Below, in pieces: positions 4,998 through 53,912 of a stretch of DNA of 64,000 nucleotides. The stretch is from contig NZ_SSNH01000003.1 in NCBI RefSeq assembly GCF_005877005.1, forward strand, positions 116,782 through 180,781. Reading direction: 5' to 3'. The notes beneath the pieces were generated by a model, which was not told where the DNA came from, made no database searches, and saw only the letters and a list, made by a program, of their open reading frames with translations. Made by a program: the position numbers and the translations under genes. Source of the stretch: Sinomonas susongensis. Its GTDB lineage: Bacteria; Actinomycetota; Actinomycetes; Actinomycetales; Micrococcaceae. Every line of letters starts with the position of its first letter. The first letter of the stretch is position 1.

Positions 4998-5030
4998 ACG
5001 ACCAGTGTGCCTGTGGGCCCGGGAGATTGA

Positions 5031-6515
5031 CTACACGCCCAGATACACCGTCTTGCCCCACGTGTAGAACTCGATCGCCGTCCTGCCCTGCTCCCGGAAC
5101 GTGTTGGTCGAGGAGTCTTTGATGCCGCCGAACGGCACGTTGAGGTCGAGGCCCGACGTGGGCCGGTTGACCTTCACGACGCCCGCCTGCGCCCGCTCCG
5201 CGAAGTCCGTCGCGAGCGCGAGCGAATCGGTGCAGATCCCCGCGGTGAGTCCGTAGCGGGAGGCGTTGACGGACGCGAGGCCGGCCTCGTAGTCGGGCAC
5301 CTCGAGCACGACCACGACGGGGCCGAAGATCTCGTCGGTGACTACGGGGTCGTCCGCGTCGACGTCGGCGAGCACCGTCGGAAGGAAGAACAGGCCGCCT
5401 CGGGAGGGCTCGCCGTCATCCGTTCCCGTGAGGAGGCGCGCCCCGCGCTCGACGGCGCCGCGCACCGCCGCGGCGTCCTGGCGCAGCTGAGCCTCGCTCA
5501 CCACGGCACCCATGCGCGCGCCGTCGAGCCCGTCACCCGGCGCGTAGGCCGCGGCCTGGTGGACGAGCGCGTCCACGAATTCGCCGCGTACGCCGGGGGT
5601 GACGTACACGCGGGACGTCGCGGTGCAGGCCTGGCCCGTGAGCCCGAATGCGCCTGCGGCGACCACCGCAGCAGCGGCTTGGGGAGCCGCGTCGTCGAGC
5701 ACGAGCACAGCGTTCTTGCCACCCATCTCGAGCTGCACGCGGGCGCGCCGTGCATCGAGGATGCCGTTGAGGTGGAGTCCCACGGCGGTCGAGCCCGTGA
5801 ACGACAGCCCGGCCACGCGCCCGTCCCGCGCGAGCGCTTCGCCGACCACACGGCCCTTCCCGTGCACCACGTTGAAGACACCAGCGGGGAGCCCGGCGTC
5901 ATGGAGCGCTCGGGCGAGGTGAGTCGCCGAAAGCGGGGTGAGCTCGGCGGGCTTGAGGACGACGGCGTTCCCCGCAACGAGCGCAGGCGCGGCCTTCCAC
6001 GCGGGGATGGCGAGTGGGAAGTTCCAAGGCGTGATGAGCGCGAAGACGCCGAGCGGCTCGCGGCGCGTGGTGACGGTGGTCCCGGGCAGAGAACTGGGCA
6101 GCACCTCGCCCGAGGCCGCCCATCCGAGGGAGCCGAAGAACCGCAGCACGTCGGTGGCACGCCTGACCTCGCCCGAGGCCTCGGCCAAGGTTTTGCCCTC
6201 CTCACGCACGAGGTCAGTGGCGATCCCCTCCGCCCGCTCCTCGAGCAGCGAGGCCGCCTTGATCAGAATCGCGCCGCGCGCCGGGGCGGGGAGGCTCGCC
6301 CATGCCGGCTGCGCGCGGACCGCGGCCGCCACGGCGGTGTCGGCGTCGGCGGCCGTGCCCGCGGGGGAAAGCGCCGCTATCTGGTCGAGGCGCGCGGGGT
6401 TCCGGCGCTCGACGCTTGGCTCGCCTGCCCAGGATCCGCCGATGAGGTGGTGGGCGAGCGCAGGCGGCGCCGCGGTACCGGGGTTTCGCGGGGTTTCCGT
6501 GGTGAAGGAGGTCAT
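5031..6515 (-). CDS. NAD(P)+-dependent aldehyde dehydrogenase, semialdehyde type
   Basis: A 494-residue ALDH-superfamily enzyme oxidising an aldehyde to the acid. Visible elements are the cofactor-binding [11 protein letters not shown] segment, FTGSTAVG, the general-base Glu in LEMGGKN, and the catalytic Cys in GQACTATSR. The closing [15 protein letters not shown] resembles alpha-ketoglutarate-semialdehyde and related dehydrogenases, where a DHDPS-type dehydratase often precedes the step, as it does here. It is the last gene of the leftward catabolic run that begins with the transporter near 13 kb, 24 bases after the SDR gene. The substrate is inferred to be an aldehyde or semialdehyde made by that pathway. 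Confidence 0.88.
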
Positions 6516-6539
6516 TGAGGTGTCCTTGGGTGTCGGGGG

Positions 6540-7313
6540 TCAGAGGCTTCGGATGAGTCCGCCGTCGCAGCGCAGGGCGACGCCGGTGATGTACGACGCC
6601 GGCGCGCTGCACAGGAATGCTGCCGCCGCCCCGAACTCCTCGGGTGCGCCGTAGCGGCGGGCGGGAATGGTCTTGCGGGACTCGAGCTGCACCTCGTCGA
6701 GGGAGATTCCCCGGCGCTTGGCCGCGGCCGCGTCGAGCTCGGCAACGCGGTCGGTCGCGATGCGGCCGGGGAGGAGCAGGTTGACGGTCACGGCGTCGAG
6801 GGCGACCTCGGCGGCGAGCGTCTTCAGGTATCCGGCGAGGGCGGCGCGGCCGGTGTTGGACATCGCGAGATTCGGCAGCGGCGCCACGATGCCGCTCGAG
6901 CCGACCGCGAGGATCCGGCCCCAGCGGCGCTGCCGCATGCCGGGGAGGACGCGGGAGACGAGGGCATGATGCGGGCGCACCAGCAGGTCGAACGCGCCCG
7001 CGAGGTCCTCGGCGGAGAGGCTGGCGGCCGCGCCCGGGCGTGGGCCGGGGCCGTTGAGCACTGCGATGTCGATCGGGCCCAGCTCCGCCTCGGCCTGGCC
7101 GACGGCCTCGCCGACCGCGTCCGGCTCGTGGAGGTCCACAGCGATGGCGACAGCCCCGGGAAGGGACGCCGCGACCTGCTCGGCGAGCTCCCGGCGTCGC
7201 CCGGTGATCGCGACGCGGGCCCCTTCGGCGGCGAGGGCCCGCGCGACGGCGAGGCCGAGGCCGCCCGTGGACGCCGCGACGAACGCGGCCTTTCCTGCAA
7301 TTCCGAGGTCCAT
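6540..7313 (-). CDS. Atypical short-chain dehydrogenase/reductase-fold protein
   Basis: A 257-residue Rossmann-fold SDR. The N-terminal [12 protein letters not shown] matches the dinucleotide loop, LNGPGP replaces the usual NNAG, and the C-terminus [12 protein letters not shown] is classical. The catalytic Ser region VGSSGIVAP is kept, but the YxxxK pair is changed: alignment puts Ser152 and Arg156 in the [16 protein letters not shown] segment where Tyr and Lys are expected. It belongs to a divergent SDR branch that may bind NAD(P)H without standard chemistry. ATG at 7313 shares one base with the stop of the preceding lyase gene, so translation is likely coupled. Confidence 0.85.
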
Positions 7314-37898: not shown

Positions 37899-37937
37899 CG
37901 GGTGCCGCTGCGGGCGTGCGGGCGTCATGCTCAAGGT

Positions 37938-38903
37938 ATGAGAACGAATCCCTCCGAGCCTGCTGTTCGCGTGCGCGGGCTCCGCAAGGAGTACGGTGGC
38001 CTGGCCGCCGTCGCCGGAATCGACCTGGACATCGAATGGGGCGAGACCTTCGCCCTCCTCGGCCCGAACGGCGCTGGCAAGTCAACAACTGTCGAGATCC
38101 TCGAGGGCTACCGTCACCGCACCGCGGGCGACGTGACCGTGCTCGGCGTCGATCCCGCCCATGCCAAGCTCGATTGGAAGTCCCGTCTGGGGATCGTCCT
38201 GCAGTCCTCGGGTGAGAGCGGCCAATACACGGTCCGCGAACAGCTCTCGCACTTCGCGCGGTTCTACCCCAACCCCCGCAGGGTCGACGACGTGATTGCC
38301 GCCGTCGGACTCGAGAAGCAGGCCAAGACCCGGATCAGCAGGCTCTCGGGGGGCCAGCAGCGCCGCGTGGACGTCGCCCTGGCGATCATCGGCCGCCCCG
38401 AGCTCCTGTTCCTCGACGAGCCGACCACGGGCTTCGACCCTGAGGCCCGCCGCGAGTTCTGGAGCCTCATCGAGGAGCTCAAGACCGAGGGAACCACGAT
38501 CCTGCTCACGACCCACTACCTCGATGAGGCCGCGCGCCTCGGCGACCGCGGCGGGGTGATCCTGGGGGGTCGGCTCGTCGCCGTCGGCCGCATCGACGAG
38601 CTCGGCGGCGCGGAAGCCCGCGTCCCGTTGGTGAGGTGGCGTGACGACGACGGAGCGTTGCGTGAAGAGCGGACCGAGCGGCCCGCGGAGCTCGTCGTGG
38701 AGCTCGCGCGGAGGTTCGCCGGGGAGCCGCGGGAACTCGAAGTGATCCGCCCGAACCTCGAGGACGTCTATCTGGCCCTCGTCCACGCGGCAGGGTCAGC
38801 GGCGGGCGCCGGAGCGGCGAACGGGGAGCCCGCGTCCAACCCGGTCCACTCGTCCAGCCCTGTCCACGCGTCCAACCCCGAAAAGGAGGCCGAGCCGGCA
38901 TGA
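37938..38903 (+). CDS. ABC-2 exporter ATP-binding protein
   Basis: A 321-residue ATPase subunit. Walker A is LLGPNGAGKSTTVEILEGY, the signature is RISRLSGGQQRRVDVALAI, Walker B is LLFLDEPTTGFDPEARRE, and the H-loop is LLTTHYLDEAARLGD. The C-terminal extension (about 270-321) is Ala/Ser/Pro-rich. It powers export by the adjacent permease; this DrrA-type pairing often exports antibiotics or lipids. ATG 37938 is chosen although its Shine-Dalgarno sequence is unusually close; GTG 37902 is the alternative. Stop overlaps the permease ATG (ATGA). Confidence 0.93.
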   Translation: MRTNPSEPAVRVRGLRKEYGGLAAVAGIDLDIEWGETFALLGPNGAGKSTTVEILEGYRHRTAGDVTVLGVDPAHAKLDWKSRLGIVLQSSGESGQYTVREQLSHFARFYPNPRRVDDVIAAVGLEKQAKTRISRLSGGQQRRVDVALAIIGRPELLFLDEPTTGFDPEARREFWSLIEELKTEGTTILLTTHYLDEAARLGDRGGVILGGRLVAVGRIDELGGAEARVPLVRWRDDDGALREERTERPAELVVELARRFAGEPRELEVIRPNLEDVYLALVHAAGSAAGAGAANGEPASNPVHSSSPVHASNPEKEAEPA

Positions 38904-39712
38904 GCGTCGTCTCGCACGGGATCGCCCGCACGGGCTACGAGACCAAGGGGTACTTCCGGTCCCCGGACACGGTGTTCTTCACGTTCCTGTTCCCCATGCT
39001 CATGCTGGGGATCTTCGCGGCCGCATTCAGCTCGCGCGGCGACATCAGCCTTGGCCCCGGGTCGCCGGACCACGTCTCGGTCGCGGCGTACTATCTTCCG
39101 GGCATGCTCGCGGCGGGGATCCTGCTCTCGGGCGTCCAGAACCTCGCGGTCGACATCGCGGGGGAGAAGGGCGACGGCACGCTCAAGCGGCTCGGCGGGA
39201 CCCCGCTCTCGCCCATCTCGTACTTCCTCGGCAAGCTCGGGAGGGTCTTCGTGACCGGCGTCCTGCAGGCCGCCATGCTCCTCGCCGTCGCACGCCTGGC
39301 GTTCGGCGTCGCGCTTCCCACTGCGTGGGATGCCTGGGGGCGATTCGCATGGATCTTCGTGCTCGGCACGGTGACCTCGGCACTCCTCGGCATCGCGCTC
39401 TCGGCCCTGCCGAGGAGCAGCCGGAGCGCGACCGCTGTGGTCGTCCCGATTGTCCTCGTCCTGCAGTTCATCTCGGGCGTCTACCTCCAGTTCTCGATGC
39501 TTCCTGACTGGATGCAGAACCTCGCGAGCGTGTTCCCGCTCAAGTGGATCGCCCAAGGCATGCGCTCGGTGTTCCTGCCCGACGGGTTCAAGGTGCTGGA
39601 GCAGCATCAGGGCTGGGAACTCGGCTGGGTGGCCCTGTGGCTGGCGGTGTGGCTCGTCGTGGGCCTCGTGCTGAGCCGCCTGACGTTCCGCTGGATCCGG
39701 CGGGACGCGTGA
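38900..39712 (+). CDS. ABC-2 type exporter permease
   Basis: A 270-residue membrane protein with about six helices and the ABC-2 fold. VFFTFLFPMLMLGIFAAAF is helix 1. The cytoplasmic EKGDGTLKRLGGTPLSPISYFLGK is the conserved coupling region, and VLQFISGVYLQFSMLPDWMQ precedes the last helices. It forms the membrane pore with the preceding ATPase, expected to be a homodimer. The coding end and stop codon lie inside a 20-bp perfect hairpin that should also terminate transcription. Confidence 0.92.
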   Translation: MSVVSHGIARTGYETKGYFRSPDTVFFTFLFPMLMLGIFAAAFSSRGDISLGPGSPDHVSVAAYYLPGMLAAGILLSGVQNLAVDIAGEKGDGTLKRLGGTPLSPISYFLGKLGRVFVTGVLQAAMLLAVARLAFGVALPTAWDAWGRFAWIFVLGTVTSALLGIALSALPRSSRSATAVVVPIVLVLQFISGVYLQFSMLPDWMQNLASVFPLKWIAQGMRSVFLPDGFKVLEQHQGWELGWVALWLAVWLVVGLVLSRLTFRWIRRDA

Positions 39713-41596: not shown

Positions 41597-42745
41597 TCAG
41601 GCGGCTTGCGGGAGGATGAGCGGCTTGATGCAGCCGTCGAGTTTCGAGGAGAAGATGTGGTAGCCCTCGGCGATGTGCTCGAGCGGGATCCGGTGCGTCA
41701 CGAGCTCGCTGGGCTTGAGGTAGCCGTTCTGGATGTGCTCGAAGAGCCTCGGCCACTGTCGCTTGACTGGGCACTGGTTGGCGCGGATCGTGAGGCCCTT
41801 GTTCATCGCGTCGCCGAACTTGACCGCGCTGAAGATCGGCCCGTAGGCGCCCACGACTGAGACGGTTCCGCCCTTCCGGACGGAGTCGATGGCCCAGTTG
41901 AGCGCGATTGGCGAGCCGCCTTGGAGCTTGAGCTTGGCCGCGGCCACGTGCTGGAGCAGGTTGCCGTCAGCCTCGGCACCCACGGCGTCGATGACGACGT
42001 CCGCCCCGAGGTACTCGGTGTCCTTCTTGAGCTGGAGCACGATGTCGTCGTATTCGGTGAAGTTGTAAGTCTCCGCTTGGGCGAACGTGCGCGCCTTTTC
42101 GAGGCGGTAGTCGAGATGGTCGACGACGACGACGCGGCCGGCACCCATGAGCCAGGAGGATTTCGCGGCGAAGAGCCCCACGGGACCTGCCCCGAACACG
42201 ACGACGGTATCGCCTTCGCTGATGTCGGCGAGCTGTGCGCCGAAATAGCCGGTCGGGCACGCGTCGGTGAGGAGGACTGCGTCCTCGTCGTCCATCCAGT
42301 CTGGGATCAGGGAGGGCCCGACGTCGGCGAAGGGGACGCGCACGAACTGGCCCTGGCCGCCGTCGTACCCGCCGCACGTGTGCGAGTAGCCGTAGATGCC
42401 GCCCACAGCCGTCGCATTCGGATTCACATTGTGGCAATTGGAATACAGGCCGCGCGCACAGAAATAGCACGACCCGCAATAGACATTGAAGGGGACCATG
42501 ACGCGGTCGCCCTTCTTCAGGTTCTGCACGGATGGCCCGACTTCTTCCACGACCCCGATGAATTCGTGGCCGAAGGTCATTCCCACTCGGGTGTCGGGCA
42601 TCATTCCGTGGTATAGGTGCAGGTCGGATCCGCAGATTGCGGCGAGGGTCACCCGGACGATTGCGTCATTCGGGTGCTCGATCTTGGGGATATCCTTTTC
42701 CTCCACTCGGACCTTGTAGGGTCCGCGATAGACCATTGCTTGCAT
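41597..42745 (-). CDS. Zinc-dependent alcohol dehydrogenase (MDR family, formaldehyde-dehydrogenase-like)
   Basis: A 382-residue medium-chain dehydrogenase. The catalytic zinc is held by [10 protein letters not shown], the FGHEF His-Glu pair and a later Cys/Asp. The structural zinc lobe is [15 protein letters not shown] with four Cys. NAD(P) binding is [16 protein letters not shown]. Length and order resemble glutathione-independent formaldehyde dehydrogenases and related threonine/alcohol enzymes, so small alcohols or aldehydes are likely substrates. ATG 42745 has AGGAAGG nine bases upstream. It is divergent from purH and followed by a hypothetical membrane gene. Confidence 0.9.
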
Positions 42746-42860
42746 GGCAGCCGCCTTCCTCGCGCATTCTCGGCTGGTTCCGGCCAGAGAGTCATCCCCC
42801 TTCCGGGCGGGGGGAAACATGCGCGCTCCCTCGGCGCGGTCCATCCTCGGCGCCCCTCGA

Positions 42861-42866
42861 TAGAAT
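42861..42866 (+). promoter_or_regulatory. Possible -10 element for purH
   Basis: TAGAAT matches a sigma-A -10 consensus well in this G+C-rich region and lies 75 bases upstream of the purH GTG. No good -35 was seen 17 bases before it, so the assignment is tentative. Confidence 0.35.
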
Positions 42867-42940
42867 GGGCCCCGAACTGCCCCCACACCGCGCCCCATGT
42901 CGCTGCCCAGACAGCGTTCTGGCGCGCGCGAGAGAGACGA

Positions 42941-44611
42941 GTGACCGTGATCCAGCTTGACCGTGTTCCCATCCGTCGCGCCCTGATCTCCGTCTACGAC
43001 AAGACCGGCCTCGAGGATCTCGCGAAGGGCCTCCATACGGCCGGCGTCCGGATCGTCTCGACGGGTTCGACCGCGAAGAGGATCGCCGCCGCCGGCATTC
43101 CGGTCCAGGAGGTCGAGGAGGTCACCGGCTCGCCCGAGATGCTCGACGGCCGCGTCAAGACGCTGCACCCGCGCGTGCACGGGGGGATCCTCGCAGACCG
43201 GCGCGTCCCGGCCCACATGGAGACGCTCGAACAGATGGGCATCGAGGCGTTCGACCTCGTCGTCGTCAACCTCTACCCGTTCGTCGAGACCGTCCGCTCG
43301 GGGGCAGAGCTCGACGCCGTCGTCGAGCAGATCGACATCGGCGGCCCGGCGATGGTGCGGTCGGCAGCGAAGAACCACGCCGCCGTCGCCGTCGTCGTCG
43401 ACCCTTCGTTCTACGGCGAGGTCGTGACGGCCGCTGCCGAGGGCGGCTTCGACCTCAAGACCCGCCGGCGGCTCGCGGCGAAGGCGTTCGCCCACACGGC
43501 GGCGTACGACACCGCGGTCGCGACCTGGACGGCGGGCCAGTTCCTCGACGAGGACGCCGAGGGCACCGTGAAATGGCCTGCCTACGCGGGCCTTGCGCTC
43601 GAGCGCTCCGAGGTGCTCCGGTACGGCGAGAACCCGCACCAGCAGGCGGCCCTCTACGTCGACAAGGCTGCGCCCTCCGGCATCGCCCAGGCCGACCAGC
43701 TCCACGGCAAGGCGATGAGCTACAACAACTTCGTGGATGCGGATGCGGCGCTCCGTGCCGCGTTCGACTTCGCAGAGCCCGCGGTGGCGATCATCAAGCA
43801 CGCCAACCCGTGCGGGATCGCCGTGGGAACGCCCGGTGCCGAGGACCCGATCGCCGACGCCCACCGAAAGGCGCACGCGTGCGACCCGGTGTCGGCCTAC
43901 GGCGGCGTCGTCGCGGCCAACCGGACCGTCACGAAGGGCATGGCCGAGACGCTGTCCGGGATCTTCACCGAGGTCGTCGTGGCGCCTGACTTCGAGCCCG
44001 AGGCCGTGGAGATCCTCTCCAAGAAGAAGAACATCCGCCTCCTCGCGCTTCCTGAGGGCTACGACCGCTATCCGACCGAGTTCCGCCAGCTCTCGGGCGG
44101 CATGCTCGTGCAGTCATCCGACCGTCTCGACGCGGCGGGCGACGACCCGGCCAACTGGACCCTCGCGAGCGGTGAGGCCGCCGACGAGTCCACCCTCGCC
44201 GATCTCGCCTTCGCCTGGCGCGCCTCCCGGGCGGCGAAGTCGAACGCGATCCTCCTCGCGAAGGACGGCGCGTCGGTCGGCGTCGGCATGGGGCAGGTCA
44301 ACCGCGTCGACTCGTGCCGGCTCGCCGTCGAACGCGCCAACTCCCTGGGCGTCTCCGTGCAGTCCGAGGTGGACTCTGCCGGTGGAGCCTCGGGCGGCGA
44401 CGCAGCCTCGGCGCCGGAGCGGTCTCGCGGTGCAGTCGCCGCCTCGGACGCGTTCTTCCCGTTCGCGGACGGCCTGCAGATCCTGATCGACGCCGGCGTC
44501 AAGGCCGTCGTCCAGCCGGGCGGTTCGGTGCGCGACGAAGAGGTCATCGCCGCCGCGAAGGCCGCCGGTGTGACGATGTACTTCACGGGCTCCCGGCACT
44601 TCTTCCACTGA
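42941..44611 (+). CDS. purH: Bifunctional AICAR formyltransferase / IMP cyclohydrolase
   Basis: A 556-residue PurH that performs the last two steps of IMP synthesis. Residues about 1-200 are the cyclohydrolase ([33 protein letters not shown]). The rest is the formyltransferase, with [30 protein letters not shown] (catalytic Lys-His) and [13 protein letters not shown] Gly/Ala/Ser-rich insertion of about 25 residues (near 475-500) precedes SDAFFPF, a surface feature. GTG 42941 is preferred, with a GAGAGA stretch just upstream; GTG 42947 is possible. In many actinobacteria purN is adjacent; here it is 5 kb away. Confidence 0.97.
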
Positions 44612-44710: not shown

Positions 44711-44755
44711 TCAGTGGTGCTGAATTCAGTGGTGCTGGATTCAGTGGTGCTGGAC
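44711..44755 (-). repeat. Three 15-bp copies of the peptide gene's own 3' end
   Basis: On the leftward strand the last 15 bases of the peptide gene (ending CAGCACCACTGA) are followed immediately by two more near-identical copies. Because the unit is 15 bp, each copy keeps the frame and would read a hydrophobic residue, Gln, His, His, stop. Only the first copy is translated. Confidence 0.85.
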
Positions 44756-44941
44756 GGCGGTGATCCACTGGCCCGCGTTTGCGGTGGCCGTCGAGTTGAT
44801 CGTCGCCGCGTTGATCGCGAACGCGAGATTCACGGCGATGACTGGGGCGACGTTGATGGTGAAGTCGCCGAAGAGAGTGTGGCGTTCGACGAGGAGTTCG
44901 GCTTCTTCACAGGCCAGTTCGGCGGGCGTGATGCGTGACAT
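44741..44941 (-). CDS. Small precursor-like peptide A (66 residues)
   Basis: A 66-residue peptide starting MSRITPAELACEEAELLVER and ending AGQWITAVQHH. It is paralogous to the 62-residue peptide at 46648: both share an acidic N-terminal part with a (L/I)TxAELAxE motif, an Asp/Arg-His-Thr-Leu turn, a NVAxVxAxN core and a C-terminal AGxWxxVxxxQH. The acidic half looks like a leader and the Ala/Asn-rich half like a core. It has no signal peptide. AAGGAG precedes ATG 44941. It lies downstream of an M50-type protease gene. A ribosomally made, protease-processed peptide is inferred, not shown. Confidence 0.75.
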   Translation of the reverse strand: MSRITPAELACEEAELLVERHTLFGDFTINVAPVIAVNLAFAINAATINSTATANAGQWITAVQHH

Positions 44942-44960
44942 TGTTTCTCTCCTTGCTTGA

Positions 44961-45033
44961 GATGGGGCATTCGGCTCGAAATGGGGCATTCGGCTCGAAA
45001 TGGGGCATTGGCTCGAAATGGGGCATTGGAAGG
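44961..45033 (-). repeat. 19-bp tandem repeats in the leader of peptide A
   Basis: Four units of 18-19 bp built on AATGGGGCATTCGGCTCGA fill the gap between the protease stop and the peptide A ribosome-binding site; the last is partial. The array begins 20 bases upstream of the ATG, so it must lie in the mRNA leader if transcription comes from the protease side. Confidence 0.8.
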
Positions 45034-45122
45034 TGAAGCAGGGCACCCGGCGCCGGGCGGGGAACCGACGCCGGGCACGTCGAGGGGCGGCAGGCTGAAC
45101 CTGAGTCGCGCACCCAGTGGAT

Positions 45123-46496
45123 TCAGAAGTGGTAGCCCAACCCGATGCGGCGGGGCACTGCGGCGTGACGCGGGACGGTATGGATGACGGGCGGTGCCGT
45201 CCGCTTGGCCAGGACCCCCAACAGCCAGCGGCTGAGGGGGCGTCCCAGCGTCCGCGCCATGCGCCCGAGGATCAGGACCGAACCTAGGGCGGGCAGGCCC
45301 AGCAGAACCATCGAGAGCAGTGACATGACTGCCTCGACGGGTTCGCCGAGGGTCAGGAACAGTGCGAGGTTGCTCGCATGCGTGGCGACGGCACCTGCCG
45401 CCTCCATGAGGATCACCGGCAGACCGATCACAAGCCAGACGAGCACGACAGCCAGGAACGGCACGACGATGAGCACCCAAGCCGTGACGATCCACCTCGC
45501 GACCGGGCGCAGCTCCCGGACGCGCGGGTCGACGGGCCGTCCCGGGATGAGGCTCCGGAGCACGGGGCCGACGCGGGCGAACAGGTCGGGGACGCCCGCG
45601 AGATCGGCGAGGACGAAGTACCCGTCGAGCCGGATGGTCGGCGGGAGCTGCTGGGCCATCTGGAGCTGGGTGAGGATGACAACGAGGAGCAGGAGCGGGC
45701 TGCCTGTCACGAAGTAGCCGGCGCCTGCGCACAGGACCCACCAGACGTTGAAGTACAGCCCCCCGAGATCGGTCCGGATGCGGCCCGACCGGCCGAGACG
45801 GTAGGCGTCGGTGACGTCCGTGAAGAACGCCGGGAACACGAGGTAGAGGCCGGCGCCGATGACGCCCGGGGTAGCGCCGCCGTACCGGCAGGCTGCCGCA
45901 TGGCCCATCTCGTGGACGAGAGCCCCGACCACGAGCAGCACGAACAGCGAGAGGAGCATGCTCGGGGTCAGGAGGACCGCCGAGAGTGCGGCCATGGCGT
46001 TGCTGCTGAAGAACAGGCGGATGTCGAGCGCGACGAGGGCGAGGCACGCGAGGACGACAACGGGCCCGGCGTAGAGCGGGCTCACGATCCGCGCGACCCG
46101 GTTGACGACCCTGCGCGACAGGATCGTGGTCTTGCCAGAGAGCGCGAGGAGGGGAGCGGACGACGGCGGTGGGGCCGCCAGGGCTGTCCCTGGCCGCTCG
46201 AGCAGCCCGAGGGGTTCGAGCTTTCCCTCGGCGAGCAGCGTGAGGCCATCCACATCGAGCTCGCGCCCGAAGCTCTCGCTCACCCTCTGAGCGAGTTCCT
46301 CCGAGACGAGCGGCTTCGCGGCCTCAGCGACAATGTGGTGGAGCAGCTCCGTGAGCTGTACGACCTGCCCGTCTGCCCGACGGACGAGATACGTGCTGTG
46401 GTCGAGGCCGGATCCGTTCACGAGTCCGAGCAGTTCGACGCCCTGCGCGCGCTGCCAGCGTTGAGCGGGGGAGGCGAGGTCTGCCGTCATCGTCAT
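45123..46496 (-). CDS. M50-type membrane zinc metalloprotease with possible PqqD/RRE-like N-terminus
   Basis: A 457-residue membrane protease related to YydH-type 'putative peptide zinc metalloprotease' proteins. Residues about 30-100 are a soluble region whose pattern (HSTYLVRRADGQVVQLTEL followed by helices) resembles a PqqD/RiPP-recognition domain; this is a weak match by eye. About six to eight membrane helices follow. HEMGH at 195-199 gives the catalytic Glu and two zinc His; IRLDGYFVLADL supplies the third ligand, Asp291. It lies between the two peptide genes on the same strand, so it probably recognises and cleaves them at the membrane. ATG 46496 has GAGGA upstream; ATG 46490 is an alternative. 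Confidence 0.82.
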   Translation of the reverse strand: MTMTADLASPAQRWQRAQGVELLGLVNGSGLDHSTYLVRRADGQVVQLTELLHHIVAEAAKPLVSEELAQRVSESFGRELDVDGLTLLAEGKLEPLGLLERPGTALAAPPPSSAPLLALSGKTTILSRRVVNRVARIVSPLYAGPVVVLACLALVALDIRLFFSSNAMAALSAVLLTPSMLLSLFVLLVVGALVHEMGHAAACRYGGATPGVIGAGLYLVFPAFFTDVTDAYRLGRSGRIRTDLGGLYFNVWWVLCAGAGYFVTGSPLLLLVVILTQLQMAQQLPPTIRLDGYFVLADLAGVPDLFARVGPVLRSLIPGRPVDPRVRELRPVARWIVTAWVLIVVPFLAVVLVWLVIGLPVILMEAAGAVATHASNLALFLTLGEPVEAVMSLLSMVLLGLPALGSVLILGRMARTLGRPLSRWLLGVLAKRTAPPVIHTVPRHAAVPRRIGLGYHF

Positions 46497-46537
46497 CTCG
46501 GATCCTCTTCGGTCGCTCCGGGGTGTTGGCGCAGCGC

Positions 46538-46578
46538 GGTGCTTTCAGCGAGAAACCAGTGCTCTCAGCGTGAAGCCA
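46538..46578 (-). repeat. Direct repeat between peptide B and the protease gene
   Basis: Two adjoining units of about 20 bp, GGTGCTTTCAGCGAGAAACC and AGTGCTCTCAGCGTGAAGCC, differ at four positions. They sit in the 151-base gap after the peptide B stop. Like the repeats near peptide A, they are unrelated in sequence to the other arrays. Confidence 0.7.
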
Positions 46579-46647
46579 GCTGGCCTCCGAGCCGGGCGCG
46601 GTCGTGCTGGGGCCGGCCGCGCCCACGGCCCTGTGGTGTGATGCCGG

Positions 46648-46836
46648 TTAGTGCTGCGAAACGCTGACGTACTGCCAGGCGCCGCTGTTCGCCTCGGAGT
46701 GGATCGTGAAGAGGTTCAACGCGACCGAGGAGTTGTATGCGTTGACAGAGGCGACATTGAACGTCCAAAGCGTGTCCCGGTCGGGGAGCAGCTCGACGGT
46801 TTCGGCGGCGAGTTCTGCGGCGGTGAGCTTGGTCAT
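46648..46836 (-). CDS. Small precursor-like peptide B (62 residues)
   Basis: A 62-residue peptide starting MTKLTAAELAAETVELLPDR and ending SGAWQYVSVSQH. It aligns over its length with peptide A (shared LTxAELAxE, DRDTLW/ERHTLF, FNVASVNAYN/INVAPVIAVN, AxQ-H end), with a two-residue shorter middle. The acidic leader-like half contains no Cys; the second half is rich in Asn, Ser and Ala, and has two Trp and two Tyr. AAGGAG lies nine bases before ATG 46836. It is first in line after the SARP-type repeats, followed by the protease and peptide A. Function not known; antimicrobial or signalling peptide are both open. Confidence 0.75.
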   Translation of the reverse strand: MTKLTAAELAAETVELLPDRDTLWTFNVASVNAYNSSVALNLFTIHSEANSGAWQYVSVSQH

Positions 46837-46909
46837 GAAACTCAACTCCTTGGTAATGCCTTCTGAGGAAGCGATCGGAATTGACCGCTGACGAGAGTCA
46901 AGCGAAGTC

Positions 46910-46938
46910 GCGTTATTCCGGCGTTATCGCCGCGTTAT
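46910..46938 (-). promoter_or_regulatory. Triple heptamer with 11-bp spacing: putative SARP box
   Basis: GCGTTAT occurs at 46910, 46921 and 46932, exactly 11 bp apart (ATAACGC on the coding strand). SARP regulators bind heptameric direct repeats at 11-bp steps. The box lies 73 bp upstream of the peptide B ATG and 37 bp past the end of the SARP gene. Eight bases beyond it toward the gene is TTGACT, a possible promoter hexamer. Confidence 0.7.
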
Positions 46939-46975
46939 CGGCACCACGTGGGCAAACGTGGGACATCGGGGCTCC

Positions 46976-47755
46976 TCAGCCGGATGCCCGGGCTTCCTCG
47001 ACCAGTTGCCGGTGGGCATTCAGCATGCTCGGCTGCCGGGCCGGCAGGGGAGCGGGGAGCCCGAGAACGTCGAAGGAGCCGCCGGTCAGCGCCGCCTTGA
47101 GCCGGTCCGAGGGCTCGAGGCCGAGCTCGTCACGGAGCCGGGATCGGAATTCTTCGAGGGTCCGGTAGGCCCCGGCCGTGTCGCCTGCCTGGACCTGCGC
47201 ACGGATGACCAATGCTTGGGCGGACTCGCGAAGCGGCTCGATGGCGGCGGCCTGCCGGGCGGCGACAACGGCCGCGTCGGCCTCGTCGCGGGCGAGGTGC
47301 TGGCGGGCTGTCGCCTCGAGGGTTGCGACGCGGAGGGCCCGCAGGCGTTCCTGCTCGAAGATGACCCAGTCGTCGTACCATCCTGGAAGCAGTTCCGCGC
47401 CGAAGAGCAGCTCTTCGAAGTCTGGTTCCGGGGCGGCCCCGGCGCGGACGAGTTCCGCACGCTCGCGGAAGCGCCTCACGTCCACGGTGACAGTCGGCCC
47501 AAGGCCAATCGGCTCGAGGCTGTCGGACAGAAGCCCGGGCAGTTGATGCCGGACTTTGAAGACCGTGGAGCGCAGGCTGCCCGCGGCCTGCTGCTCGCCG
47601 CTCTCGGGCCACAGCAGGCCTGCTAGATACGATCGCGGCCGCTGGCCCATGAGGGCGAGTGCCGTGATCAGCCGCTCCTGTCTGATTCCGACGGCGACTG
47701 GGAGGCCGTTGCCCAAGAGCTGCCAGCACCCCAAGAGGCGTAATTCCCACTCCAT
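46976..47755 (-). CDS. SARP/BTAD-family transcriptional activator
   Basis: A 259-residue small SARP. Residues about 1-95 are the OmpR-type winged helix (LRLLGCWQLLGNGLPVAVGIRQERLITAL; LAGLLWPESGEQQAAGSLRSTVFKVR). Residues about 100-245 are the BTAD helical domain (EQERLRALRVATLEATARQHL; LEEFRSRLRDELGLEPSDRL). There is no ATPase or TPR extension. SARPs activate secondary-metabolite clusters by binding heptamer repeats near -35; such repeats lie just downstream, before peptide B. ATG 47755 has a GGGGG stretch about five bases upstream. Its likely target is the peptide-protease cassette. Confidence 0.9.
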   Translation of the reverse strand: MEWELRLLGCWQLLGNGLPVAVGIRQERLITALALMGQRPRSYLAGLLWPESGEQQAAGSLRSTVFKVRHQLPGLLSDSLEPIGLGPTVTVDVRRFRERAELVRAGAAPEPDFEELLFGAELLPGWYDDWVIFEQERLRALRVATLEATARQHLARDEADAAVVAARQAAAIEPLRESAQALVIRAQVQAGDTAGAYRTLEEFRSRLRDELGLEPSDRLKAALTGGSFDVLGLPAPLPARQPSMLNAHRQLVEEARASG

Positions 47756-48386: not shown

Positions 48387-50705
<2,319 letters not shown>

Positions 50706-51103: not shown

Positions 51104-52810
51104 TTAGGAGAGGGCTGCCCTGGGCATCCGCCGAGCGGCAGTGCCACCCGCGACGCGCAGGCCGCCCATCGCGAGGCCGACCCCGATTCCGAGGAGGAGC
51201 ATCGCAACCGCGAGCAGGAGCGAGAGATCAGTCGGCGTGGTGCCAGCACCGCTGATGAACGAGCTCAGGCCGAGGCACGGTGAGCCCGTGCCCGTCCCTG
51301 TTCCAGCCGAGGCGTTGGAGCCAGTCCCTGCTGCAGCCGAGGTGCCGGTCCCAGTGCCCGTGCCAGCGGAGGCGTTGGCACCAGTCGAGGCGCCCGTGCC
51401 CGCCGTGCTGGCAGATCCCGTCAGCGACCCGCTGCCAGCGCCCGTCGCCGGGCCGTTTCCGGCACCTGCTGCGACTGCAACGTTGCCGTTGAGAGCAGGC
51501 GCGGTGCCGGTGCCCGTGGTGCTGCTGCCGGTTCCGAGATCGGCCGAGCCTGCGGCAAGCGGGCCACTAGCGGTGCCGAGATCGGCCGGGCCTGCGGCCG
51601 AGGAACCGTTCGCGGTGCCCAGATCGGCTGAACCAGCGCCGAGATCCGCTGAACCAGAGCCGAGATCGGTCGAGCCGGTGCCGGTTCCGGTGCCTGCCCC
51701 GTTGCCCGTGCCGGTACCCGTCGGGGCACCAGGCTGGGCCGCGTTGAGCAGGAGCGTCGCGTTGCCGCCATCAGCGGTTCCGAGGGCCGGAAGGCCAGCC
51801 GAAACCACACCCGAGGCAGGAACTGGCGCGTTCACGGCGACGGTGAGCGCAAGCGGGTTGCTGGCCAGAGGGCTGACCCCCGTGCCAACTCCGCCAAGCC
51901 CGCTGACTCCGCCGAGTCCGACGGGCAGCGTGCCGAGCCCCAAGCCGGTCACCGGCGAGATTCCGCTCCCCGAGGAGGTGCCGAGGCCTGAGAGGACGCC
52001 GGACGGAACCCCGAGGGCAGCCTCAGGCGCGGACGGCGTGGTCGGGACGGTCGAGGCGCCGGACGTCACAACGGCCGGAGCGCCGATCGTCACCGTCGGC
52101 GCAGTGCTCGCGGTCGTCGCCTGGCCGTCTGTGCCCACGAGGCTGGCCGCGACGGGTGCCGTCGCGACGGCGGCGGGAGAGGTCGCGGCGGTCGCCGTGC
52201 TGCCGGTGGTCGAGCCCGTGTCGGCACTCGGGCTGTTGACGGCGGCCGGGGCGCCGATCGTCACGGAGGGCGCTGCGGACACGTTGAGCGCCGGGGAGTT
52301 GAGCGCCGGCGTGGTCGGCACCGCCGCTCCCGCACCATCAGCGGCCGTGTTGTCCGCGGTGCCCCCCACTGTCCCGATCGGGACGGTGACGGCTGGTGTC
52401 GTCACAAGCGCGGGGTCATCGATGCCGGTGGGGTTGGGCACCCCGATGGCGGGGACGGTGACGTTGAGCGCCGAGGTGCTCGGCAGCGTCGTCGGCGTCG
52501 TAGAAGCCGGCTCGTCGGAATCCGTCAGATTGGGCAATGACACGGCGGGCACTGACACGGCGGGCACTGACACGGCGGGCGCCGACGCGGCGGGCGCGGA
52601 GGCTGCCGGCAGCGCCCCCGTGGCCGGGGTGGCTGAGCCGGCGGTCGGGGCGGCCACGCCGCCGATCTGGACGGCCACGGGGACCGATGCATTCACAAGG
52701 GGGTTGGTTGTGACGGTCGTGCTGTCTGCCAGCGCGGCCGCCTCGCCGAGGCCCATGAGGCCTCCGGCAACAACGGCGCCGAGGATCACTCGGCGGGCAA
52801 GCTTGTTCAC
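51104..52810 (-). CDS. Large low-complexity secreted protein with C-terminal membrane helix
   Basis: A 568-residue protein I cannot assign to a family. A signal peptide (RRVILGAVVAGGLMGLGEAA, cleavage after ALA-DS) is followed by about 490 residues dominated by Ala, Gly, Thr, Ser, Val and Pro. Within these are PAVSV five-residue repeats near 85-100, several TIGAPA copies, and SADLG copies near 390-430. Near the end are one Cys (SPCLGLSSFI), a hydrophobic helix (LSLLLAVAMLLLGIGVGLAMGG) and a basic tail. No LPXTG is present. It looks like a surface protein anchored by its C-terminal helix. GTG 52810 has AGGAG seven bases upstream. A similar protein is encoded 85 bases upstream. Confidence 0.75.
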   Translation of the reverse strand: MNKLARRVILGAVVAGGLMGLGEAAALADSTTVTTNPLVNASVPVAVQIGGVAAPTAGSATPATGALPAASAPAASAPAVSVPAVSVPAVSLPNLTDSDEPASTTPTTLPSTSALNVTVPAIGVPNPTGIDDPALVTTPAVTVPIGTVGGTADNTAADGAGAAVPTTPALNSPALNVSAAPSVTIGAPAAVNSPSADTGSTTGSTATAATSPAAVATAPVAASLVGTDGQATTASTAPTVTIGAPAVVTSGASTVPTTPSAPEAALGVPSGVLSGLGTSSGSGISPVTGLGLGTLPVGLGGVSGLGGVGTGVSPLASNPLALTVAVNAPVPASGVVSAGLPALGTADGGNATLLLNAAQPGAPTGTGTGNGAGTGTGTGSTDLGSGSADLGAGSADLGTANGSSAAGPADLGTASGPLAAGSADLGTGSSTTGTGTAPALNGNVAVAAGAGNGPATGAGSGSLTGSASTAGTGASTGANASAGTGTGTGTSAAAGTGSNASAGTGTGTGSPCLGLSSFISGAGTTPTDLSLLLAVAMLLLGIGVGLAMGGLRVAGGTAARRMPRAALS

Positions 52811-52895: not shown

Positions 52896-53912
52896 TCAGT
52901 CGGGAGTGGAGCCTGGATCGAAGGCGGGGGAGGCGGGCAGGAAGCTGCGAGAGCGACGCGCTCTGCCCACAACGAGGAAGAGTGGGGCCAGCAGGAATCC
53001 CGCGGCAAGCGTCGCGGTTCCGGCAGCGGGCGACGTCGGCCCGCTCGCACCGCCGGTACCCGAACCGGCGGGTGGGGTGAAAGGCGTGTCCGGCTGCGGC
53101 ACGGGAGGTTCGCCAAGAGGTGCCCGCATACCGCCATTGACGCTCTGCCCGACGAGGCCGCTCGCCGACCAGAGCGTCGACCAGTCGAGTGTTCCCGCTG
53201 CCGTGGAGTCTTCGCTGAGGCCAGTCGACACCCCGAAGGCGCGATCCTGAGGAGCCGATACCTCGGTCTTGGCCGTCTGACCCGCGGCTGCTTGGGTTGC
53301 AGCGGCCTGCTCGGGAGCCGCGTCGGACGCAGCTGTGGGAACGTCGGCCGCCTGGACGTCGGAGCCCGCGGTCGGTTCGGGGCCCCCCAAGAGCGCAGGA
53401 GGCGAGACGGGGACGGGAAGCGTCACGGGGACCGGTGCCGCCGCAGTGTCAGAGAGGGCGCCGCCCACCTTCGTGACGGTCCCGCCAAGCCCCGAGGCGG
53501 CGTCCGAGACAACGGGGGTGAGAGGCTCGAGCGGGCCCTGCAGAACGGGGGCCACAGCAGCGGGTGCGGCCGCCACGGCAGAGCCGACCGCCGTCGTCGG
53601 GCTGCCGATCGCCGAGGCGAGAGCGCCCTGGAGCGCCGGCACAGCGGGGCCAGCTTGGGCAGCCGGCGGGAGAGCCGCCGCGACCTCTTTGACGGCTACG
53701 GAGACGGTCTGTGTTGGGGAACCCGCAACGGGCGGCGCAGTGACGTGCGAGGAGATGACGTGCGAGGACACGGGAATCGGCGGGGCTGGGTCCGACGAAG
53801 CGGACGCAGAAGATCCCCCCAGAAGCAGCCACCCCACACCGAGCCCCGCAGCAACAGCCGCGTGGCGCGCGAGGCGGAGGACGCGAATTCGCGCCTTCGG
53901 TGCCAACCGCAT
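52896..53912 (-). CDS. Secreted Ala/Pro-rich protein with C-terminal membrane helix
   Basis: A 338-residue protein with the same plan as its neighbour at 51104. The N-terminal basic region and hydrophobic segment (LARHAAVAAGLGVGWLLLGG) form a signal peptide ending near SASA. About 240 Ala/Pro/Val/Ser-rich residues follow, then a Gly/Pro linker (PAGSGTGGASGPTSPAAG), a membrane helix (TATLAAGFLLAPLFLVVG) and a basic, then Pro/Ser-rich, tail. There are no Cys and no sortase motif. GGAGGAGGGG precedes ATG 53912. The two genes are probably one unit making cell-surface proteins; function unknown. Confidence 0.75.
   Translation of the reverse strand: MRLAPKARIRVLRLARHAAVAAGLGVGWLLLGGSSASASSDPAPPIPVSSHVISSHVTAPPVAGSPTQTVSVAVKEVAAALPPAAQAGPAVPALQGALASAIGSPTTAVGSAVAAAPAAVAPVLQGPLEPLTPVVSDAASGLGGTVTKVGGALSDTAAAPVPVTLPVPVSPPALLGGPEPTAGSDVQAADVPTAASDAAPEQAAATQAAAGQTAKTEVSAPQDRAFGVSTGLSEDSTAAGTLDWSTLWSASGLVGQSVNGGMRAPLGEPPVPQPDTPFTPPAGSGTGGASGPTSPAAGTATLAAGFLLAPLFLVVGRARRSRSFLPASPAFDPGSTPD

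Follow-up and report, generated by a model that had tools for sequence, protein, structure and literature searches.

This study concerns a small gene set in a stretch of 64,000 nucleotides from Sinomonas susongensis (NCBI RefSeq assembly GCF_005877005.1, contig NZ_SSNH01000003.1, positions 116,782 to 180,781 of the forward strand), hereafter the window, in which positions are counted from its first letter. Two genes for small peptides, P1 and P2, stand on either side of a gene for a membrane protease, and a BTAD (SARP-like) gene follows next to P2 (Table 1). An earlier reading of the letters alone (the sequence-only reading) had placed the two peptides, the protease and the SARP gene on one strand, and all four are indeed on the minus strand. 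Both peptide genes begin with an ATG that has AAGGAG a few bases ahead. Two tandem arrays accompany P1, one between it and the protease gene (44955-45027, 19-base-pair unit, 3.5 copies) and one over its end (44711-44754, 15-base-pair unit, 2.9 copies).

Table 1. Gene set of the window and its surroundings (RRE, RiPP recognition element, where RiPP stands for ribosomally synthesized and post-translationally modified peptide; S2P, site-2 protease; ORF, open reading frame; ABC, ATP-binding cassette).
Feature	Position	Strand	Remarks
P1, class I precursor peptide, 66 residues	44741..44941	minus	leader 44873-44941, core 44744-44872
P2, class II precursor peptide, 62 residues	46648..46836	minus	leader 46768-46836, core 46651-46767
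Membrane protease, RRE-M50/S2P-type, 457 residues	45123..46496	minus	
RRE/PqqD-like N-terminal domain of the protease	46203..46460	minus	about residues 13-98
HEMGH zinc-binding motif of the protease	45900..45914	minus	residues 195-199
RLDGY of the protease	45618..45632	minus	residues 289-293, distal Asp ligand D291
BTAD (SARP-like) gene, 259 residues	46976..47755	minus	presumed regulator of the set
purH (AICARFT/IMPCHase)	42617-44611	plus	flanks the set on the P1 side
Monomeric isocitrate dehydrogenase	48414-50705	plus	flanks the set on the other side
ORF of 137 residues	47944-48357		no Pfam family; between the BTAD and isocitrate dehydrogenase genes
ABC ATPase/ABC-2 permease pair	37902-39712	plus	5 kb from P1, beyond purH

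P1 and P2 had been described as paralogs that align from end to end, and their Smith-Waterman score of 126 exceeds by far the maximum of 50 reached in 1000 shuffles of P2. Across the peptides, the leader motif E..ELLPxRxTL is kept and the cores diverge by lineage. Among the 42 peptides of our alignment A2, the leader has a median of 23 residues and a median charge of -2.5; the core that follows has a median of 40 residues and a median charge of -1 (range -2 to +1) and is made of 35% Asn, Gln, Ser and Thr and 23% Ala. The cores mostly terminate in Gln, or in Gln plus one residue, and their conserved positions extend over the whole ∼40 residues up to the last Gln. The median ratio of nonsynonymous to synonymous differences per site (pN/pS) is 0.41 in class I (55 pairs, 11 peptides) and 0.57 in upstream class II (45 pairs, 10 peptides); by this measure, the peptides behave as constrained coding sequences, that is, as real genes. 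In upstream class II, the median pN of 0.11 in the leader and 0.35 in the core displays the usual precursor pattern of a conserved leader and a variable core. The order is reversed in class I (core 0.20, leader 0.27), where the core is at least equally conserved. A locus may hold up to five peptides, and each of the two-class loci (18/18) combines exactly one class I peptide with one to four class II peptides, a regularity that the sequence-only reading had missed. These 18 loci are L030-L044 (15 loci, from which the class models were derived) together with L086, L088 and L089 (L and G numbers are our labels for loci and genomes); at 21 other loci with a peptide match, the classes are not separable or a single class is present. 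No match to a Pfam or NCBIfam family below an E-value of 0.015 was obtained with the 42 peptides.

The association between peptides and protease extends well beyond the window. In a class-wide sample of 296 genomes, the protease profile matches 67 genomes at E ≤ 0.001 and 46 at E < 1e-100, and all 26 peptide-bearing genomes belong to these 46 (hypergeometric probability of 3.9e-25, with relatedness ignored). In a phylum-wide sample of 396 genomes, the protease was found in 25 (E ≤ 1e-30) and peptides in 12, of which 11 are among the 25; in the remaining one (G349), the peptides lie at the start of a contig. Peptides devoid of the protease, which the sequence-only reading had named among the observations that would speak against it, are thus not widespread. 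Two genomes (G000, that of the window, and G154) belong to both samples, and the peptide counts are lower bounds since the profile search scored the best candidates per genome. At the level of loci, 79 complete protease loci were analyzed after 4 of 83 had been dropped as incomplete. A 16-column leader matrix made from the A2 peptides detects a peptide on the same strand within 4 kb at 55 of these 79 loci; at the same threshold, it detects none on the opposite strand (0/79) and none among reversed decoys (0/79). As the 55 include 15 loci used for training, the independent count is 40/64. A profile built on three long precursors contributes a further 18 loci, including its 3 seeds, and brings the protease loci with peptides to 73/79. 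Moreover, at a locus of a contig from the viral collection IMG/VR that contributed to no model (L158, 4518-6485), the protease is immediately preceded by a peptide of class II and one of class I. As judged from gene content, peptide and protease genes are partners across Actinomycetota.

The catalytic features recognized at first sight in the protease are invariant: H195, E196, G198 and H199 of HEMGH and R289, D291, G292 and Y293 of RLDGY are identical in 43/43 aligned homologs, an alignment that left out another protease of the window's genome, its third copy, in which HEFGR is found. The hallmarks of S2P/M50 proteases, HExxH and a distal Asp in a membrane core, are both present, the membrane core as judged from hydrophobic segments and AlphaFold2 helices. 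In the AlphaFold2 model (mean predicted local distance difference test, pLDDT, of 87.9), an N-terminal domain of four strands and three helices is followed by long helices. Pfam Peptidase_M50 does not match the window's protease and matches 5/43 relatives (best E-value of 0.01). A confident domain match assigning the protease to an unrelated substrate, which could also have spoken against the sequence-only reading, did not appear; among named families, the daptide leader peptidase MpaP comes closest, and its annotated member from Streptomyces virginiae aligns with the protease family from the N-terminal domain through LDGY (hhalign probability of 99.3%). A distant relative of the protease is encoded outside the window on the same contig (G000:C23:72545-73078, a 586-residue frame, 34% over 170-342).

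The N-terminal domain of the protease is likely an RRE. Its PqqD/RRE-like look, noted before, is backed by the AlphaFold2 topology and by weak PqqD and ApyI profile matches in relatives; the window's own protein is left unmatched. PqqD is the most often matched Pfam family, with the N-terminal domains of 4/20 relatives (best E-value of 0.00089), while ApyI and TIGR03859 match 6/20 and 3/20 relatives, respectively, and neither matches the window's domain. DUF3320 matches 2/20 domains with a better E-value (0.00013) than PqqD. In a Foldseek search with the protease model, the matches were not significant; the first was the lantibiotic dehydratase MibB (E-value of 0.53) and the seventh TglHI (E-value of 2.1), both of which we take to hold RRE-type domains.

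The set has additional copies in the same genome and variants in other lineages. In the third protease copy (G000:C31, L047 7358-9964), HEFGR replaces HExxH, and the precursor beside it, a leaderless remnant counted among the 73 loci, is reduced to a C-terminal core, with no leader in the three forward frames over 870 bases. In this one case, the catalytic motif and the leader were lost together. The seventh peptide gene of the genome is an orphan of class II (G000:C34, L120 7478-7765, minus strand) with no protease in the 16 kb examined, which suggests that the protease may act in trans. Near long proteases, the precursors are roughly 200-390 residues as called, and those inspected carry two core-like stretches after one leader; hhalign relates them to the peptide profile at 93.5% (score of 43.8, best shuffle of 18.1). 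The f36 family has retained the leader, and its cores look quite different. At one locus of a non-f36 family (L111), three ORFs ahead of the protease have an LPER leader and His/Gly-rich, Cys-containing cores. Fusion of the protease to a MinD/ParA-like ATPase domain was observed at L044 (8467-11256) and, by eye, at L086 (∼5011-7300). Concerning spread by phages or plasmids, no match was found in the phage collection, and 13 plasmid records were retrieved, 2 of them (both from Streptomyces) covering 75-77% of the query; this route was not retained.

A third component, also overlooked by the sequence-only reading, emerged from related loci: a CxxC-repeat protein of ∼225-350 residues whose start resembles a signal peptide by eye. 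Its repeat domain is present in 51/79 loci, as a separate gene of the fetched stretch in 31 and fused to the C-terminus of the protease in 20. The peptide motif N-x-[AS]-x-A-x-N-x2-T-x2-S-x3-[AS]-x-A-x-Q-x-[VI]-x-V finds an in-register counterpart in the CxxC repeat, N-x-[AS]-x-A-x-N-x2-C-x2-C-x3-A-x-A-x-Q-x-V-x-V. Comparison of the peptide profile with CxxC family c3 by hhalign gave a probability of 71% and a score of 32.5, where the best of 60 column shuffles reached 16.1; as far as profiles can tell, the cores thus resemble the repeat of one of the two CxxC families. The repeat protein of L037, the second locus of the window's genome, was modeled with AlphaFold2 (pLDDT of 81, predicted template-modeling score of 0.76, first 42 residues of low confidence) as seven strands of 11-12 residues each, starting 16-18 residues apart, followed by helices. 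All three CxxC pairs are placed in turns between strands. The best Foldseek match of this model had a non-significant E-value of 0.19, and FapC and beta-helical proteins are among the weak matches. Each peptide core would, by analogy, correspond to one hairpin of the kind found in the repeat protein.

The SARP label holds for the BTAD domain (Pfam, 52.9 bits for a cut-off of 22.1) and fails for the DNA-binding domain, which Pfam did not detect. A BTAD cluster is found in 16/59 loci, and all 16 are among the 18 two-class loci; the gene fairly likely controls the set. The sequence-only reading had also stated that no dedicated exporter lies next to the protease. This is correct for the immediate neighbors; 5 kb away, an ABC-2 ATPase/permease pair occurs beyond purH, and it may export the cores. 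The corresponding permease cluster is present in 5/20 loci, and an ABC-ATPase-like cluster in 13/59.

How do these components compare with characterized systems? The daptide protease MpaP (PMC10036551) similarly carries an RRE-like domain on the N-terminal side of an S2P-type protease and works with several short precursors per locus, and the homology with its example from S. virginiae (NZ_CP108150.1) is remote and covers the N-terminal domain and the catalytic core. However, MpaB, MpaC, MpaD and MpaM are missing at the window's locus, which is the one scanned for them. Daptides have a leader with ELExMEAP and an invariant C-terminal Thr, in contrast to the leader motif and the Gln-ending cores found here. 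With a score of 87.8 bits against the NCBIfam daptide protease NF041824 (cut-off of 300), its best NCBIfam match, the window's protease was not assigned to the daptide family. The next match, YydH/LiaK NF058609 (43.5 bits for a cut-off of 225), did not qualify it as an epipeptide protease either. Epipeptide YydH/LiaK/EpeP likewise belongs to the M50 proteases and matures a small peptide, as summarized in a review (PMC10885120), but no radical SAM gene was seen by eye in the window's locus. In TMcins, as described in a preprint (PMC13252029), the S2P-clan protease TmcP also cleaves a leader off at the membrane, and the peptide undergoes little further modification. TmcP belongs to family PF11667, the term RRE does not occur in the main text, and the cores contain a transmembrane helix. 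That system further involves TmcD, TmcBC and TmcE, whereas only the protease and the peptides recur in nearly every locus here. In its broad sense, a RiPP is recognized by a conserved leader and a divergent core beside a leader-binding enzyme, and this is what the loci display, with a probable leader-binding role of the protease and with the pN order reversed in class I. The set would work like RRE-guided leader removal, which is of a known kind, and the family is neither daptide nor epipeptide by the tests made.

The partnership is nevertheless without a Pfam or NCBIfam name, and it is widespread in a phylum rich in natural products. Sequence searches of the PDB with the peptides, the repeat protein, the protease and its N-terminal domain yielded nothing below an E-value of 0.4, and no published account of the peptide-protease family was found in the openly licensed PMC literature. 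In one annotated example, the plasmid NZ_CP107797.1 of Streptomyces sp. NBC_00557, the peptide, the protease and the CxxC-repeat protein are all labeled "hypothetical protein". Since the daptide survey (PMC10036551) picked one of several RRE families, other data of its authors may contain the present one.

We propose that the RRE-like domain of the protease would bind the acidic leader E..ELLPxRxTL at the cytoplasmic face of the membrane, and that the S2P-type zinc site of the enzyme would cut near the end of the leader, close to RxTL. A near-neutral core of ∼40 residues, rich in Ala, Asn, Gln and Ser, would be released to the exterior, where it would act. The window's lineage would produce a single class I core along with one to four of class II, and at the cell surface the cores may pair with the CxxC-repeat protein as small subunits with a structural or adhesive role. 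Removal of the leader by the protease is very probable, with MpaP and EpeP (PMC10036551, PMC10885120) and TmcP (PMC13252029) as analogous precedents, and export of the core is quite likely. Since the hairpin motif NxAxAxN-turn-AxAxQxVxV recurs in the CxxC-repeat protein, this protein would be the most likely partner of the cores. Surface assembly of the two, suggested by the resemblance between repeats and by the fusions of CxxC domains to proteases, is advanced tentatively and with some doubt. Taken as a whole, the reading in which an RRE-guided membrane protease frees hairpin-like cores of ∼40 residues that function extracellularly, possibly together with the repeat protein, is slightly favored. 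The interpretation given by the sequence-only reading is supported overall, cleavage, its site, export and any modification being the steps that we infer.

Several observations weigh against this proposal and have to be set beside it. Regarding the partnership, no peptide was found at 6/79 protease loci (L092, L146, L153, L155, L156 and L157), of which L092 and L146 have peptides on another contig of their genomes; the peptides of L144 are on the opposite strand, and the protease and peptides of G497 are on separate contigs. In the leader of P1, Val replaces the Pro of other leaders. As for the repeat protein, its gene was not found in 28/79 loci, including 13/13 loci of the f36 family, it is present as fragments only at L036, and it is missing at the window's own locus, that of the same genome's second locus (L037) being the copy modeled above. 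Its export is probable from an N-terminus assessed by eye. The peptide profile matches CxxC family c12 weakly (hhalign probability of 4.6%, score of 20.1, best shuffle of 14.9), and the repeat motif was not seen by eye in f36 and in some deep-branching cores. A repeat shared by long precursors and CxxC proteins, which fits by eye, is unsupported by hhalign (0.5% and 0.3%) and was rejected. Neither the protease model nor the repeat-protein model retrieved a PDB fold at E ≤ 0.001 with Foldseek. Finally, the ABC pair 5 kb away and the ABC-ATPase-like cluster imply that export need not be performed by the protease. For EpeP, the review states that it is thought to accomplish both cleavage and export (PMC10885120).

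The main rival sees in the cores secreted peptides with antimicrobial or membrane activity, comparable to the bacteriocin-like daptides and epipeptides and trimmed by the protease, the CxxC protein serving as immunity protein or carrier. The closest named proteases come from the daptide and epipeptide pathways, several divergent class II cores are found per locus, and a BTAD regulator is present, a type often tied to specialized metabolism. The ABC-2 pair and the clusters mentioned above (5/20 and 13/59 loci) would also fit a dedicated export of such compounds; however, the pair, which lies past purH on the opposite strand, seems to be part of that neighborhood. The near-neutral cores (median charge of -1 over 42 peptides), the conservation of the class I core (median pN of 0.20), the location of many loci at one chromosomal place beside purH (12/20) and the resemblance of the CxxC repeat to the core itself point away from a toxic function, which we consider unlikely. 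Another role as signals, in which the protease would release a short fragment for neighbors or the producer to sense, could be envisaged from the small size of the peptides, their several paralogs and the adjacent regulator, and S2P-type proteases release pheromones in other bacteria; this is made improbable by conservation over the whole 40-residue core to its last Gln, and not merely at a short end. Even more improbable is that the peptides regulate the protease as a leader-like lid or inhibitor with the true substrate elsewhere: cleavage is indeed inferred here and one peptide gene is an orphan, but leaders kept while cores differ by lineage are expected of substrates, and up to five peptides per locus or frames with two core-like stretches hardly suit inhibitors.

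Returning to release of hairpin-like cores, a more specific version may be formulated as a curli-like surface system of Actinomycetota, in which the RRE-guided intramembrane protease would free beta-hairpin subunits and the exported CxxC hairpin-repeat protein would be their seed or anchor. In lineages with long proteases, the seed would be fused to the protease and two core units would follow one leader. The analogy with curli-type functional amyloids lies in small subunits that share a repeat with an exported partner and in strands rich in Asn, Gln and Ala. However, the curlin family is not among the Pfam matches of the 42 peptides, the membrane route is different, and beta-assembly is only predicted here, from the repeat resemblance and the strand-rich model of the partner. 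We thus regard this version as rather doubtful. If the general scheme is true, RRE-guided membrane proteolysis would extend beyond tailored RiPPs and include peptides whose genes have no evident tailoring enzyme in their vicinity. Besides, the loci offer a ready set of substrates with which the delivery of peptides from an RRE to an S2P protease can be studied. They also point to a candidate surface structure of actinobacteria that would be of a new type and can be put to the test.

Concerning the surroundings of the set, the interval from purH to the isocitrate dehydrogenase gene has space only for P1, the protease, P2, the BTAD gene and the 137-residue ORF. Further along the window, two minus-strand ORFs (51104-52810 and 52896-53912) that match neither Pfam nor NCBIfam at E ≤ 0.01 are rich in Ala, Thr and Val and have starts that look exported.

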